From Streptomyces smyrnaeus (lineage in GTDB: Bacteria; Actinomycetota; Actinomycetes; Streptomycetales; Streptomycetaceae): a stretch of 64,000 nucleotides of DNA. The notes under the pieces were generated by a model. That model did no database searches. It saw nothing but the letters and a program-made list of their open reading frames with translations, and was not told the origin of the DNA. The position numbers and the translations under genes were made by a program. Of the stretch, positions 3,932-57,952 are shown one piece after another. The stretch is from contig NZ_JAFFZM010000008.1 in assembly GCF_017676345.1 (NCBI RefSeq), positions 124,001-188,000 of the forward strand. The letters run 5' to 3'. Each line of letters begins with the position of its first letter. Within the stretch, counting starts at the first letter, position 1.

Positions 3932-4120
3932 GGCCATCCCTCTCGGTCGCGGAGGCTGGCCATCATCCGCCGCCCCGGGGGGCGCCACAAGGCGCCCTTC
4001 ACGATGTCGCCACCACCGCCACAATTCCATGACATCACCGGCGGAATGATCGACTCATGCGCCACACTGCATACTTGGGCGAGCCCCGGCACAGAGGGGA
4101 CACTCTGGGAGGAAGCTCCA

Positions 4121-7128: not shown

Positions 7129-7199
7129 TCCCGGGTCGACTAAGGGCAAGTCAGCGGTTTTTGGTGCCGTCGATGGGGGTTCGAATCCCTCCCCGGGAG
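7129..7199 (+). tRNA. tRNA-Gln (anticodon TTG)
   Basis: A full cloverleaf can be folded by eye. The acceptor stem is TCCCGGG with CCCGGGA, and the D stem is GACT with AGTC. The anticodon stem is GCGGT with GCCGT (two G-U pairs) around loop TTTTGGT, giving anticodon TTG. The T arm is GGGGG-TTCGAAT-CCCTC, with discriminator G at 7199. The 3' bases read CCCA, so CCA is not cleanly encoded. It lies just upstream of glmU. tRNA genes are common integration sites, but no integrase or duplicated 3' end is visible here. Confidence 0.92.
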
Positions 7200-52125: not shown

Positions 52126-52959
52126 TCAGGCAACCGGCACCGTCACCGACCGAGGGTCGAAACCGAAGGGCAGCTCCAGCCGATGGGCCCGCATCAGCTC
52201 CACGTCGGAGAGCAACTCCTGCGTCGGCCCGTCGGCAACCAGCACCCCGTCGCTGAGCACCACCGAGCGGGGGCACAGCTCCAGCGCGTACGGCAGGTCG
52301 TGGGTGACCATCAGCACCGTCAGCTCCAGCGAGAGGATCAGATCGGCCAGCTCGCGGCGGGCCGCCGGATCAAGGTTGGAGGACGGCTCGTCCAGTACGA
52401 GGATCTCGGGCCGGCCGGCCAGCACGGTGGCGACCGCGACGCGGCGCCGCTGGCCGAACGAGAGGTGGTGCGGCGCCCGGTCCGCGTGCTCGGCCATCCC
52501 CACCCGCTCCAGCGCCTCGTGCACCCGCGCCTCCAGCTCGGCGCCGCGCAGCCCGGCGGCTGCCGGTCCGAACGCCACATCCTCCCGCACCGTCGGCATG
52601 AACAGCTGGTCGTCCGGGTCCTGGAAGACGATGCCGACCCGGCGCCGGATCTCCGCGAGATGAGGGCGCCCGGCCTTGAGCCCGGCGACGGTGACCGATC
52701 CGGCACCCGGCGTCAGGATGCCGTTCAGATGCAGCACCAGCGTGGTCTTTCCGGCGCCGTTGGGGCCGAGCAGCGCGACGCGCTGGCCGCGCGGCACGGT
52801 CAGGTCGACGCCGAACAGCGCCTGGTGGCCGTCGGGGTAGGCGTAGGCGAGACCGCTCACCTGGAGGGAGGGCACCTCGGCGGCGCCGGGGGCGGGGTCG
52901 GCGGTGCCGGGGGTGCGGGCGGTACCGGGGTTATCGGCGGTGGAGGTCAAAGGGTCCAT
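52126..52959 (-). CDS. cbiO: ABC/ECF transporter ATPase, cobalt/nickel type
   Basis: 277 residues. Walker A GPNGAGKTTLVLHLNG, the Q-loop VFQDPDDQLFM typical of CbiO, signature LSFGQRRRVAVA and Walker B ILVLDEPSSNLDP are present. A 45-residue Pro/Ala/Thr tail precedes the fold. It overlaps the cbiQ stop by 13 bp. It energises metal-ion uptake with CbiQ and CbiMN. Confidence 0.92.
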   Translation of the reverse strand: MDPLTSTADNPGTARTPGTADPAPGAAEVPSLQVSGLAYAYPDGHQALFGVDLTVPRGQRVALLGPNGAGKTTLVLHLNGILTPGAGSVTVAGLKAGRPHLAEIRRRVGIVFQDPDDQLFMPTVREDVAFGPAAAGLRGAELEARVHEALERVGMAEHADRAPHHLSFGQRRRVAVATVLAGRPEILVLDEPSSNLDPAARRELADLILSLELTVLMVTHDLPYALELCPRSVVLSDGVLVADGPTQELLSDVELMRAHRLELPFGFDPRSVTVPVA

Positions 52960-53711
52960 CCCAACAGGCAGATCGCGAGGGCGGTGAGCGGCAGGGCGGC
53001 CGAACGGGCCCACTCGGCCCGGCCGGCGGGCCCGTCACCGAGGGCGGGCGGCATGGTCCCGGTGTAACCGCGGCTGAGCATCGCCAGGTGCACACGTTCG
53101 CCCCGCTCGTAGGAGCGGATGAACAGCGAACCGGCCGATTTGGCCAGTACCCCCCAGTGCCGGGGGCCGCGTGCCTCGAAGCCGCGCGAGAGGCGGGCGG
53201 TGCGCATCCGGCGCATCTCCTCGCTGATGACGTCGGCGTAGCGCACCATGAAGGTGGCGATCTGGCACAGCAGCGGCGGCATCCGCAACCGCGCCAGCCC
53301 CAGCAGGAGTTCGTCGAGCCTGGTCGTCGAGGCGAGCAGCACCGAGGCGGCCACTCCGAGGGTGCCCTTGGCCAGCACGTTGAACGCGCCCCACAGGCCC
53401 GACTCGGACAGCGTCAGCCCCCAGACGGTGATCCGCTCCCCCTCCGCGACGAACGGCAGCAGCACCGCGAACGCCACGAAGGGCACCTCGATCGCCATCC
53501 GGGTCAGCAGATGGCGCGGCGGCACGCGGGAGACGGCGGCGACCGCGGCCAGCAGCAGCGTGTAGGCGCCGAACGCCCAGACGGCCTCGCGCGGGGTGGC
53601 GACGACCAGCAGGACGAAGCAGAAGACCGCCGCCAGCTTGCAGTGCGCGGGCAGCGCGTGCACGGGCGAGTGGCCGTGCTTGTAGAGCTTGTGCGCGTGT
53701 CCTGCGCCCAT
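52947..53711 (-). CDS. cbiQ: Cobalt/nickel ECF transporter T component
   Basis: A 254-residue membrane protein with about five helices. The hallmark Ala-Arg-Gly type coupling motifs are MRTARLSRGFEARGPRH and VHLAMLSRGYTG, which dock to the ATPase. An N-terminal HAHKLYKHGHSPVHALPAH, rich in His, is typical of CbiQ. It is 12 bp after cbiMN and overlaps cbiO, so this is one operon. Confidence 0.92.
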   Translation of the reverse strand: MGAGHAHKLYKHGHSPVHALPAHCKLAAVFCFVLLVVATPREAVWAFGAYTLLLAAVAAVSRVPPRHLLTRMAIEVPFVAFAVLLPFVAEGERITVWGLTLSESGLWGAFNVLAKGTLGVAASVLLASTTRLDELLLGLARLRMPPLLCQIATFMVRYADVISEEMRRMRTARLSRGFEARGPRHWGVLAKSAGSLFIRSYERGERVHLAMLSRGYTGTMPPALGDGPAGRAEWARSAALPLTALAICLLGWTL

Positions 53712-53723
53712 CCCGGCCGGCCC

Positions 53724-54872
53724 CTAGCCCTCGGTGGCGGGCGGGGCGGTGGGGGCGCCCTCGGCGGTCCGGACCCCGGCGGCCTCCTGCTGGGCCTGGT
53801 CGCGACGGCGGCGCAGGAGGACGAAGACGCCCGAGCCGACGGCGAGGGTGGCACCCACCCCGATGACGCCCGCCAGACCGCCGGAAAGCCGTGCGTCGGC
53901 GATGTCCTTGACGCCGTAGTCGGCCAGCGGGGAGTCCTCCGCCGCGTGCTTCTCCGCCTTCTTGTCGATGCCGTGGTCGGCGGCGACCTTCTCCAGCCCG
54001 TCGGGGCTGGACGAGGCGTAGAAGCTGAGCCCTCCCGCACACAGCAGGGTGACGACGAGGCCGGTGATCCACAGCGGCCGGGTGGAGCGGCGCCGAGGGG
54101 TGGCGGGGGCCGCCGGGGAGGCGGGCGCGGGCGCGGCAGCGGGCCGGGGTGCCGCGTCGGGGTCGGCGGACAGCGGCGAGGGGCGCAGTTGGAGCCGTAC
54201 GGTGAGCCGGTCGCGTGCCGCGTACACCAGGTCGGGTCGGACGGCCACCACCGCTCCCACGGTCGCTGCGGTGATCACCGCCTCCCCGATGCCGATGAGC
54301 ACATGCACGCCGACCATCGCGCCGAACACCTTGCCCAGCGCGACGTCCGTCGTCCCGCCGAGCGCGTAGAGAGCGGTGAAGGCGACCGCTGCCGCCGGGA
54401 CGGAGACGAGCGCGGCGACGAAGGAGGTGCCGGTCACCATGGACCGCCGGCGCGGCAGCACCCGCAGCAGCCCGCGGAAGATGCCGTAGGCGACCAGCAC
54501 GGTCACCACGCCCATGTCCGTGATGTTGGTGCCCAGCGCGGTCAGCCCACCGTCCGCGAACAGCACGGCCTGCAGGAGCAGTACGACGGACACGCACAGC
54601 ACGCCCGTGTACGGCCCCACGAGTATCGCCGCCAGCGCGCCACCCAGCAGATGGCCGCTGGTGCCCGCGGCCACCGGGAAGTTGAGCATCTGCACGGCGA
54701 AGATGAACGCGGCCACCAGTCCGGCCAGCGGCGCCGTCCGCTCCCCCGCCTCGCCGGGACCGCCGCCCAGTTCGCGCCGCGCGCCACGCAGGGAGACGGC
54801 GACAGCCGCGGCGGCGACGACTCCCGTACCGGCCGAGACGGGGGCGTTGATGAATCCATCGGGTACGTGCAT
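53724..54872 (-). CDS. cbiM: CbiM-CbiN fusion, substrate-binding membrane component for Co/Ni
   Basis: A 382-residue protein starting MHVPDGFINAP; the N-terminal Met-His serves as metal ligand in CbiM/NikM, which fixes the start at 54872 rather than the longer frame. The CbiM part (about 1-235) has VQMLNFPVAAGTSGHLLGGA. A Pro/Ala linker joins it to a CbiN-type end with SSSPDGLEKVAADHG and two helices. The fused NikMN/CbiMN layout is common in actinobacteria. A Nur-box-like site upstream suggests nickel. Confidence 0.92.
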   Translation of the reverse strand: MHVPDGFINAPVSAGTGVVAAAAVAVSLRGARRELGGGPGEAGERTAPLAGLVAAFIFAVQMLNFPVAAGTSGHLLGGALAAILVGPYTGVLCVSVVLLLQAVLFADGGLTALGTNITDMGVVTVLVAYGIFRGLLRVLPRRRSMVTGTSFVAALVSVPAAAVAFTALYALGGTTDVALGKVFGAMVGVHVLIGIGEAVITAATVGAVVAVRPDLVYAARDRLTVRLQLRPSPLSADPDAAPRPAAAPAPASPAAPATPRRRSTRPLWITGLVVTLLCAGGLSFYASSSPDGLEKVAADHGIDKKAEKHAAEDSPLADYGVKDIADARLSGGLAGVIGVGATLAVGSGVFVLLRRRRDQAQQEAAGVRTAEGAPTAPPATEG

Positions 54873-54947
54873 CGAGGCACTCCGCTTCCTCACGGCTTCT
54901 CACAACGGCCCGGCAATGGCCTGGCAGCGGCCGTCTCCAGCCTTTTG

Positions 54948-54978
54948 AGAATAGCGGTCAGATGCAAAGAGTTCGCAA
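54948..54978 (-). promoter_or_regulatory. Nur-box-like site and -10-like element upstream of the metal transporter
   Basis: ATGCAA-AGAGT-TCGCAA (54962-54978, plus strand) fits the Streptomyces nickel-uptake regulator pattern tTGCaa-n5-ttGCAA at all strongly conserved bases. On the minus strand TATTCT (54953-54948) lies 8 nt downstream, so a bound Fur-type Nur protein would cover the -35/spacer. I see no cobalamin riboswitch signature in the 285-bp region, arguing for nickel control. The evidence is by eye only. Confidence 0.55.
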
Positions 54979-55157
54979 GAGGGCGATTCGAATGCCCGGA
55001 ATTGGGAGGGCTCGTGGGGTCCTGTCCCCCACCCTGTGGCAGAGCTCACCAGGCCGTTCGGGTGACTGTGCCGCTTCAACAAGCGTCTGACAGAGCGAAG
55101 GGGCAACCCGGTCCGAGCGATGAGCGCACCGGGAACCCCCGACCCAGAGGAGCAGAA

Positions 55158-55571
55158 GTGTCCAAGGTCATCACCCGCATCGTGCAGGCTCAACTGATCA
55201 CCCGGCCGCCCGCGACCCGGCCTTTGACACCCGCTCTCCGGTACGACACGGACGATCCGCTGGCCGTGCGGATCGTCTTCCCCTCCGAGATCTCCCTGGA
55301 CGGCGAGGAAGTCGCCTGGGCCTTCTCCCGCGAACTGCTCGCCGAGGGGCTGCGCGGGCCCGCGGGCGAGGGCGATGTCCACATCTGCCCCTGCGGGCAG
55401 GAGCGGACAGTGATCGAGCTGTACGCCGGCGAGGGCGTCGCGGTGCTGGAGTTCCGCGCCGCCGATCTGGGGCGGTTCCTCCAGCACTCCTACGACCTGG
55501 TGCCGGCCGGTGCCGAGACGGCGCTGCTGGACCTGGAGGAGGGGTTCGCCGCACTGCTGCGCGGCGTATGA
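55158..55571 (+). CDS. ssgE: SsgA-like sporulation/cell-division protein, probably SsgE
   Basis: A 137-residue SALP with the family core VFPSEISLDGEEVAWAFSRE (about 36-55). It continues ELLAEGLRGPAGEGDVHICP, then TVIELYAGEGVAVLEF and RFLQHSYDLVPAGAE. SALPs occur only in sporulating actinomycetes and control septation, wall processing and spore separation. The neighbourhood (PBP, pmt, rsmA, Ni/Co transporter) matches that of ssgE in S. coelicolor, hence the symbol. GTG 55158 follows AGAGGAG. A terminator follows at 55636. Confidence 0.85.
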   Translation: MSKVITRIVQAQLITRPPATRPLTPALRYDTDDPLAVRIVFPSEISLDGEEVAWAFSRELLAEGLRGPAGEGDVHICPCGQERTVIELYAGEGVAVLEFRAADLGRFLQHSYDLVPAGAETALLDLEEGFAALLRGV

Positions 55572-55635
55572 CCGGGCGTCGGCGGGCCCGTCCGTCGGCC
55601 CGGCGGCCGACCGCCGCCGCTCCCGGCATGGGAAA

Positions 55636-55688
55636 CCCCCGCCCACCCGCTCCCTTCGGGAGACAGCTGGACGGGGGCTCTTCTTTCA
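55636..55688. terminator. Bidirectional terminator between ssgE and the MMPL gene
   Basis: An outer CCCCCG...CGGGGG stem with inner CTCCC-TTCG-GGGAG is followed by CTCTTCTTT on the plus strand. It sits between convergent stops at 55571 and 55697. Confidence 0.75.
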
Positions 55689-55696
55689 GCGTCGGC

Positions 55697-57952
55697 TCAC
55701 ACCCCGGTGCGCTCCGGCTCCCGCGGCGGGGGAACCACAGCGGGGGCCTGGTCCGAGTGCAGCTGCTTTTGCAGGCGTTCGCCCTCCACGTCGACATTGG
55801 GCAGGGCCCGGTCCAGCCAGCGCGGCAGCCACCAGGCGTGCCGCCCCAGCAGGGCGAGCACCGCGGGCACGATGGCCATCCGCACCACGAAGGCGTCGTA
55901 GAGGATGGCGACGGCGAGGCCGAAGCCCATCATCTTGATCATGGATTCGGACGAGCCGATGAACCCGGCGAACACGCTGATCATGATGACGCCCGCCGCG
56001 GTCACCACTCGCGCGCCCAGCCGGAATCCGCTGACGATGGCCTGGCCGGGGTTCTCCCCGTGCACATACGCCTCGCGCATCCGCGTGACGAGGAAGACCT
56101 CGTAGTCCATCGCGAGCCCGAAGATCACACCGATCATGAAGATCGGCATCATGCTCATGATCGGCCCGGTCTGTTCGACGCCGATCAGGCTCGCCAGCCA
56201 GCCCCACTGGAAGACGGCCACCACGGAGCCGAGTGCCGCCAGCACCGACAGCAGGAAGCCGAGCGCCGCCTTGAGCGGCACCAGCACCGAGCGGAAGACC
56301 AGCATCAGCAGTACGAAGGCCAGGCCCACGACCAGCGCCAGATAGGGCACCAGTGCGTCATTCATGACCTGCGAGAAGTCGATGGCGACCGCGGTGGCGC
56401 CGGTGACCAGCAGGGTGGCACCCGTCTCCTTCTCGATCGCGTCCGACTGGTCACGGATGTCGCGCACGATGTCCTCGGTGCGCGCGTCGCTGGGGCCGTA
56501 CTTCGGGATGGCGGTCAGAGTGGCGGTGTCAGCGGCGTCCCACTGCTTCTTGTTCGGCTGCGCCGGGGTGACGGCGACGACGCCGTCCACCTTCTGCAGC
56601 CGCTTCTGGATCTCGGCGGCAGCGGCCTGCGGGTCGTCGGCGCCCTTCATATCGGCCACGGCCATCAGCGGGCCGTTGAAGCCCGCCCCGAAGCCGTCGG
56701 AGAGCATGTCGTACGCCTTGCGCTGGGTGGTCTTCTCCGGCTGGTTGCCCTCGTCGGGCAGGCCCAGCTTCATGGCGCCGACCGGCAGCGCCAGGGCGCC
56801 GAGCGCCAGTACGGCGGTGACCAGCACCAGTACGGGACGGCGCAGCACGAAGCTCGCCCAGCGGGCGCCGGCCTTGGGGCGCTGGCCCTCCGCGTCCGCG
56901 GCGGGCGGCACTCCGGTGGCGGGGTTGGCCTTGCGCACCCGGCGGCCGAAGATCCGCTTGCCGACCATTCCGAGCGCGGCGGGCACCAGCGTGAGTGCCA
57001 CCAGCACGGCGATGACCACGGTGCCGGCGGCGGCCATACCCATCTTGGTGAGGACCGGGATGTTGACGACGGAGAGCCCGACCAGCGCGATCACGACGGT
57101 CAGACCGGCGAAGACCACGGCGGAGCCCGCCGTTCCGACGGCACGTCCGGCCGCCTCCTCGCGGTCCCGGCCCTCGGTCAGCTCCGCGCGGTAGCGGGAG
57201 GCGATGAACAGCGCGTAGTCGATGCCGACCGCGAGGCCGATCATCATGGCCAGCGTGGTGGTGTTGGCCGACAGGCCGAGGGTGGCGCCGAGCGCGGTGA
57301 TCGAGGAGATGCCGATCATCACGCCGATCAGCGCGGTGATCAGCGGCAGCCCGGCCGCGATGAGGGAGCCGAAGGTGAGGATCAGTACGACGGCGGCGAT
57401 GCCGATGCCGAAGATCTCCGCGTTGCCCATCTCGGGCTCGACCAGCAGCGCGTCACCACCGGTCTCCACCGTCAGGCCGGTGCCGCGGGCCGACTGTGCG
57501 GCGTCCTTGATCGTCTCGCGGGTCTTGTCGGTGATGTCCTGGGCCGGGACCTTGTAGGTCACCGAGGCGTAGGCGATGCTGCCGTCTTTGCTGATCGCCC
57601 CGCTGCCCTTGGCGAAGGGGTCGGAGACGGCTGCCGCCTGGCCGCCGCTCAGCTCCTCGCGCGCCTCCTGGACAGCGGCCTTGTTGTCGGAGGCGGTGAT
57701 CTTCTCGCCGGTGGGCGCGCGGAAGACCATCCGGGCCGTCGCACCCTCCGCGTTGGCGTCCGGGAAGCGCTCTTCCAGCAGGTCGAAGGCCTTCTGGGCC
57801 TGGGTGCCTGGCAGTGCGAAGTCGTCGTCGGGCGGGCTGGAGGCAGTGGACGCGCCACCTATGGCGAGCGCCAGCAATGCCACCCATATCAGGGCGACGA
57901 TGCGGCGGCGCCGGAAGGCGAGTCTGCCGATCTTGTACAGGAACGTGGCCAC
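55697..57952 (-). CDS. MMPL/RND-family exporter
   Basis: A 751-residue protein with about 11-12 transmembrane segments and two large extracytoplasmic loops. Motifs include GIDYALFIASRYRAEL (helix 4 Asp-Tyr pair of MMPL proteins), its second-half counterpart GLAMDYEVFLVTRMRE, and FGSLIAAGLPLITALIGV. MMPL proteins export lipids, siderophore-like or small hydrophobic compounds; the cargo is unknown. GTG 57952 has GGAGA upstream. It is divergent from the tricorn-like protease with possible operators between. Confidence 0.9.
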   Translation of the reverse strand: MATFLYKIGRLAFRRRRIVALIWVALLALAIGGASTASSPPDDDFALPGTQAQKAFDLLEERFPDANAEGATARMVFRAPTGEKITASDNKAAVQEAREELSGGQAAAVSDPFAKGSGAISKDGSIAYASVTYKVPAQDITDKTRETIKDAAQSARGTGLTVETGGDALLVEPEMGNAEIFGIGIAAVVLILTFGSLIAAGLPLITALIGVMIGISSITALGATLGLSANTTTLAMMIGLAVGIDYALFIASRYRAELTEGRDREEAAGRAVGTAGSAVVFAGLTVVIALVGLSVVNIPVLTKMGMAAAGTVVIAVLVALTLVPAALGMVGKRIFGRRVRKANPATGVPPAADAEGQRPKAGARWASFVLRRPVLVLVTAVLALGALALPVGAMKLGLPDEGNQPEKTTQRKAYDMLSDGFGAGFNGPLMAVADMKGADDPQAAAAEIQKRLQKVDGVVAVTPAQPNKKQWDAADTATLTAIPKYGPSDARTEDIVRDIRDQSDAIEKETGATLLVTGATAVAIDFSQVMNDALVPYLALVVGLAFVLLMLVFRSVLVPLKAALGFLLSVLAALGSVVAVFQWGWLASLIGVEQTGPIMSMMPIFMIGVIFGLAMDYEVFLVTRMREAYVHGENPGQAIVSGFRLGARVVTAAGVIMISVFAGFIGSSESMIKMMGFGLAVAILYDAFVVRMAIVPAVLALLGRHAWWLPRWLDRALPNVDVEGERLQKQLHSDQAPAVVPPPREPERTGV

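Follow-up and report, generated by a model that had tools for sequence, protein, structure and literature searches.

Does the cbiMN-cbiQ-cbiO operon in the window (by which we mean the whole 64-kb stretch of DNA analysed) answer to nickel through the regulator Nur, and is nickel the metal that its products bring into the cell? Family models call this type of transporter a cobalt importer, and the DNA upstream of the operon contains a short element that resembles a Nur-binding site. Our analysis indicates that the element is very probably a genuine Nur operator, at which nickel-bound Nur would repress cbiMN-cbiQ-cbiO, a predicted ECF-type nickel importer. Across the Streptomyces loci examined, such an assignment would link a transporter that goes by the name of cobalt importer to a regulator and probably to a metal.

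The Operon and Its Neighbourhood

The features discussed here are collected in Table 1. The M, Q and O components are present together in the window operon, and the Q and O genes also accompany cbiMN in 80/80 relatives (here and below, the best 80 of 503 confirmed cbiMN loci). The window cbiMN is the sole CbiM match in its genome (8.08 Mb in 69 contigs). The true start of cbiO is possibly later than annotated. The start codon chosen for cbiMN gains in credibility because, according to passages of PMC6828968, residues 1 and 2 of NikM/CbiM contribute to binding the substrate. The divergent SsgA-like gene on the other side of the intergenic region is not thought to belong to the putative Nur unit. 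A tRNA gene was also observed in the window, at positions 7129-7199.

Table 1. Features of the cbiMN-cbiQ-cbiO region (window coordinates).
Feature	Position	Strand	Basis and remarks
Putative Nur box (6-5-6)	54962-54978	minus (gene strand)	TTGCGAACTCTTTGCAT (54978-54962); sequence and conservation
CTC element	54979-54981	minus	directly 5' of the box on the gene strand
-10-like hexamer TATTCT	54948-54953	minus	TANNNT begins 25 nt from box start
Predicted 5' leader	54873-54941	minus	start placed 37 nt from box start, from promoter spacing and the leaderless class
cbiMN (nikMN-like), CbiM + PDGLE fusion	53724-54872	minus	382 aa, start MHVPDGF; PF01891 E 5.4e-55, PF13190 E 1.7e-22
cbiQ, T component	52947-53711	minus	TIGR02454 160.1 bits, above cut-off; PF02361
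cbiO, ATPase component	52126-53013	minus	ABC_tran; best NCBIfam models are ECF/CbiO ATPases, below cut-offs
Divergent SsgA-like gene	55158-55571	plus	PF04686 E 1.4e-29

In one of the relatives (L018, from position 4001 onwards), the CbiMN frame runs without a stop over the 1500 bases read (499 aa), which is longer than in four others compared and may point to a fusion or an altered end.

A Nur-Box-Like Element Upstream of cbiMN

Read on the plus strand, the box is ATGCAA-AGAGT-TCGCAA, and on the gene strand it is TTGCGA-ACTCT-TTGCAT; it is separated by 8 nt from the TATTCT hexamer and by 89 nt from the cbiMN ATG (54872). Compared with TTGCAA-N5-TTGCAA, it has 2 mismatches over the full 12 letters. 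The original prediction had claimed agreement with the published Nur consensus (tTGCaa-N5-ttGCAA, quoted in passages of PMC3919588) at all strongly conserved bases and had placed a -10-like TATTCT beside the box. Both claims are correct: every capital of the consensus fits on the plus strand (in the gene-strand reading the last A is a T), and the hexamer is present on the minus strand at 54953-54948.

Taken alone, a single box is within chance, and neither the window nor the genome counts rise above those of shuffled or reversed controls. At up to 3 mismatches, the window contains 1 site, while shuffled windows average 4.13. The degenerate pattern WTGCRANNNNNTYGCAW is matched exactly at 2 places in the whole genome vs 3 for the reversed control; the two places are the cbiMN box and a site before a gene for a NikA-like binding protein (SBP_bac_5). 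With an extended pattern, four places in the own genome were matched without mismatches (the nikA-like gene, sodF, cbiMN and one site at C36), and 32 matches were obtained at up to one mismatch vs 93 for the reversed control. Genome-wide site counts show no enrichment over reversed controls and were used solely for telling which genes are matched. Outside nikA-like, sodF and cbiMN there are 29 further matches at up to one mismatch; six of these were inspected (L103, L107, L110, L117, L122 and L128, with L107 located before a LacI-type gene) and looked like chance matches.

Conservation of the Box at cbiMN Loci

What raises the box above chance is its conservation across relatives. The 80 relatives (L016-L095) lean to near kin; they are Streptomyces records, one of them titled only Actinobacteria bacterium, and the conservation count refers to these loci. 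Control windows (n = 1410) were drawn from the relatives' own loci. A box with at most 3 mismatches was found no further than 450 bp upstream of cbiMN in 80/80 relatives vs 19/1410 control windows. When at most 2 mismatches were allowed in the same 450-bp regions, the box was found in 76/80 relatives vs 0/1410 control windows. Among shuffled upstream regions (n = 4000), 172 contained a box at up to 3 mismatches and 16 at up to 2. Within 400 bp of cbiMN, the box (at most 3 mismatches) is present in 79 of the 80 relatives. One relative, L056, had been considered as a locus without the box; this was rejected, since the box and the same -10 block are located there 410 bp upstream of cbiMN. When the promoters of the window and the 80 relatives are aligned on the box, TTGC-N9-GCA is seen to be kept in all 81.

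The position of the box in the promoter is nearly constant. In 67 of these 81 promoters, the distance from the box start to the beginning of TANNNT is exactly 25 nt, and in most of the other 14 a hexamer resembling CATCAT or CACCAT can be made out by eye at much the same position. With this spacing, the box would cover the expected location of the -35 region and of part of the spacer, a position expected of a repressor site. A generic scan of the region for the sigma-70 consensus predicted no promoter, and for this reason the -35 element itself is only presumed.

Nur and Its Probable Other Targets

Four FUR proteins are encoded in the genome. The protein that adjoins one of them (L013:1381-1863, minus strand) bears the sequence KGCYxGQE, which we take to be the YgfZ motif. 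A YgfZ-type neighbour agrees with the neighbourhood of S. coelicolor Nur in passages of PMC4531530, and the best solved match of the FUR protein in question is 3eyy (265.2 bits, E 1.6e-78), which PMC7055735 identifies as S. coelicolor Nur; the second-best structure scores 75.6 bits (E 3.8e-20). We regard this protein as the Nur orthologue.

Besides cbiMN, the box is found in front of two genes that are of interest in this respect. One is the nikA-like gene, so labelled on the basis of SBP_bac_5 family membership and the box; the other is a gene for an Fe/Mn-type superoxide dismutase (named sodF here), which is preceded by TTGCAAGTAATATGCAA. A Ni-SOD gene is also encoded in the genome. A search of 121 genus members, among them the genome that contains the window, gave NikA-like proteins at E<=1e-60 in 57 and SodF at E<=1e-30 in 104. 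A box with at most 3 mismatches is located no more than 150 bp upstream of the gene at 30/30 nikA-like loci (the best 30 of 57) and at 29/30 sodF loci (the best 30 of 104), while control stretches further upstream contained it at 0/30 nikA-like and 0/30 sodF loci. At a single sodF locus (L170, from genus member G113), no recognisable box was found within 150 bp. Nur repression of the cbiMN-cbiQ-cbiO operon would thus appear well supported at the level of sequence: the importer is most likely nickel-repressed, because the box matches the Nur site and is kept before the same genes in the loci examined. Since a NikA-like protein is present in 57 of the 121 genomes, many species may depend on a single nickel importer. 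Where both systems are present, the suggestion is that the same sensor controls two importers of nickel.

Search for a Cobalamin Riboswitch

An Rfam cobalamin scan had been set beforehand as a test that could refute the original prediction, according to which the operon lacks a B12 riboswitch. The scan was negative throughout: no match to the cobalamin riboswitch model (RF00174) at gathering score was found in the 64-kb window or in 80/80 relatives (scanned as 16, 17, 16, 16 and 15 loci), and no cobalamin riboswitch is among the four Rfam matches obtained up to E = 5 in the region 53700-55700.

Elsewhere in the genome, there are eight cobalamin riboswitches above the cut-off and one match below it. 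Downstream of seven of the eight are genes for MetE, two Peripla_BP_2 proteins, CobD/CbiB, a PALP enzyme, a ribonucleotide reductase and CobN. The PALP enzyme is ca. 1 kb from its riboswitch and so is less sure; the eighth riboswitch is L010. The ninth match (27.2 bits, below the 31.5 threshold) is at L192 (C45:267500-276500). It precedes an ECF set in which a CbiQ-like protein and a double ABC ATPase are accompanied by a prenyltransferase-like protein and by a possible ECF S component, the latter matching PF12822 with 27.9 bits, below the 30.7 cut-off. No CbiM domain was found in the six ORFs scanned at L192, nor was there a Nur box within 2 mismatches. SCO5958 of S. coelicolor is described in passages of PMC4991794 as an ATPase annotated for cobalt transport with a putative B12 riboswitch, and L192 is probably its counterpart. 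Since L192 is behind a riboswitch match and cbiMN is behind a Nur box, this genome seems to contain two ECF systems, each controlled in its own way.

Nickel or Cobalt as the Cargo

The CbiN Pfam domain was not found in the window operon, the N part of which is PDGLE, a domain that we take to be NikN. Three NCBIfam models named after CbiN match weakly, far below the cut-off (best 41 of 191 bits). The closest solved S component is 4m58 with 70.9 bits (called CbiM in its record and presumably the nickel-binding NikM2), while the cobalt CbiM 5x3x scores 39.9 bits. NCBIfam labels parts of the system "cobalt"; of these models, that for CbiQ scores above its cut-off, while those for CbiM stay below. 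In passages of PMC2667541, CbiN is specific to cobalt uptake and NikN is dissimilar to it.

The original prediction, that the operon imports nickel under Nur rather than cobalt under cobalamin, has two parts that fared differently. Control by Nur stood, being backed by the Nur orthologue, the conserved box shared with other genes, the promoter spacing and the lack of a riboswitch. Nickel is favoured as the cargo, though not proved, by the regulator, the lack of a CbiN Pfam domain and the closest solved relative. If the operon does encode a nickel importer, cobalt for vitamin B12 would have to come from elsewhere.

Proposed Mechanism and Alternatives

When nickel is plentiful, Ni-loaded Nur, a member of the Fur family, would occupy the 6-5-6 box over the -35 region and spacer and would thereby block RNA polymerase. 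Under nickel shortage, apo-Nur would release the box and cbiMN-cbiQ-cbiO would be transcribed. The ECF-type importer would then bring in nickel in parallel to the NikA-like ABC importer, and a switch from nickel to iron superoxide dismutase would take place alongside under the same shortage. In this explanation, Nur binding at the box, nickel repression, the -35 element and the nickel cargo are the inferred parts.

One can ask whether the box is merely a chance match in an AT-richer promoter, standing before a cobalt importer that is controlled otherwise. The window and genome counts, which do not exceed the shuffled or reversed controls, would allow this, but the presence of the box in 80/80 relatives, with 76 at up to 2 mismatches vs 0/1410 controls, and its near-constant promoter position make a coincidence hardly conceivable. 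A real operator, in turn, might serve the divergent SsgA-like gene, or both genes: the intergenic region that contains the box is common to both genes, the SsgA-like start being 180 bp from the box, and an SsgA-like neighbour is present at 64/80 loci. However, the other 16 loci have no SsgA-like match at E 1e-10, the box being present at 80/80, and it is relative to the cbiMN -10 that the box keeps its place in 67/81 promoters; we therefore regard a role for SsgA-like transcription as extremely unlikely.

The identity of the protein and of the metal can also be questioned. Fur-family proteins bind palindromic operators, and another of the four FUR proteins might recognise the box; by eye, one of them is beside zinc-transporter-like genes and two are beside catalase-type genes. 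Zur and FurA boxes differ from the Nur box, and the element before cbiMN fits the published Nur consensus and is common to the nikA-like gene and sodF, so that binding by a regulator other than Nur seems very unlikely. Alternatively, Nur would repress the operon as proposed, and its cargo would be cobalt or both metals, the repression limiting, for example, mixed Ni/Co entry. The CbiM-family names agree with this, the domain type does not fix the metal, and for the Salmonella CbiMNQO system a table of PMC7689651 gives both Co(II) and Ni(II), though the text of that paper says it is cobalt-specific. Yet no cobalamin riboswitch was found at gathering score at 81 loci (the window and the best 80 of 503), while B12-related genes of this genome have them, and the operon lacks a CbiN Pfam domain, CbiN being cobalt-specific per PMC2667541. 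We consider cobalt or mixed cargo unlikely and retain nickel import repressed by Nur as the preferred reading.

Comparison with Known Systems

The S. coelicolor Nur regulon shares with the system described here the regulator orthologue, the 6-5-6 box and the presence of boxes at sodF and a nikA-like gene; unlike in that regulon, the box is here also found at an ECF-type cbiMN-cbiQ-cbiO operon. Passages of PMC7055735 name nikABCDE and sodF as repressed Nur targets and add the induction of sodN; nikABCDE and sodF are also the Nur targets in PMC4531530, and sodF and sodN appear as Nur-related genes in passages of PMC3919588. No report of cbiMN-cbiQ-cbiO under Nur was found in the literature searched, most subscription papers lying outside it. 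An ECF nickel importer under Nur may, however, already have been described in a study of S. coelicolor nickel homeostasis (Kim et al. 2015, Metallomics, doi 10.1039/C4MT00318G). The proposal that the operon is a Nur target, which we consider sound, would extend a known regulon and would be a fairly ordinary addition to a known circuit.

Like the group I ECF transporters NikMNQO and CbiMNQO, the window operon encodes a CbiM-type S component with a Met-His start, a T component and a single ATPase gene; it differs from them in that M and N are fused, in having PDGLE and no CbiN Pfam domain, and in being located behind a Nur box, not a cobalamin riboswitch. The riboswitch-associated ECF system (SCO5958/L192) has a CbiQ-like T component and ATPase domains in common with the window operon, but L192 has another S component, with no CbiM domain in six ORFs and no Nur box.

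Leader Classes and the CTC Flank

In 36 of the 81 aligned promoters, the cbiMN start codon (35 GTG, 1 ATG) follows the box start by 36-38 nt, which places it at the predicted transcription start, and a Shine-Dalgarno-like tetramer was found in 0/36 of them. In the other 45 promoters, the start codon is always ATG and is at least 63 nt from the box start; 44 of these 45 have a Shine-Dalgarno-like motif. On a quick tree of the 81 CbiM regions, few branches of which are strongly supported, the two leader classes need 2 changes vs ca. 26 with shuffled labels. Because of the start position, the lack of a Shine-Dalgarno-like tetramer and the 2 changes on the tree, cbiMN mRNA is likely leaderless in one Streptomyces lineage; the window belongs to the leadered class.

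The CTC directly 5' of the box is present in 77/81 cbiMN promoters. From the cbiMN alignment and the flanks of the own nikA-like and sodF boxes, the idea of an extended asymmetric Nur operator, CTC-TTGC...GCAA-CAAG, had been derived. It was dropped, as CTC is found on either side of the box at only 1/30 nikA-like and 3/30 sodF loci; owing to this rarity, we do not regard CTC as part of the general Nur operator. It is possible, though we hold it to be rather doubtful, that the cbiMN promoter has a Nur switch design of its own. Such a design would combine a start codon shifted onto the transcription start in one lineage, so that a leaderless mRNA is made under nickel shortage and the first two residues of its product, Met-His, help to hold the metal, with a CTC flank that gives a second input or a separate nickel threshold for the ECF vs the ABC importer.

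Taken together, these promoters offer a clean example of a repressor site whose position in the promoter would be preserved even though predicted mRNA leaders vary in length from ca. 0 to ca. 370 nucleotides. The upper end of this range was observed at L056 (3591-4001), where the cbiMN leader has grown to ca. 370 bases between promoter and start and contains, as judged by eye, recurring CCGTGAC-like words.
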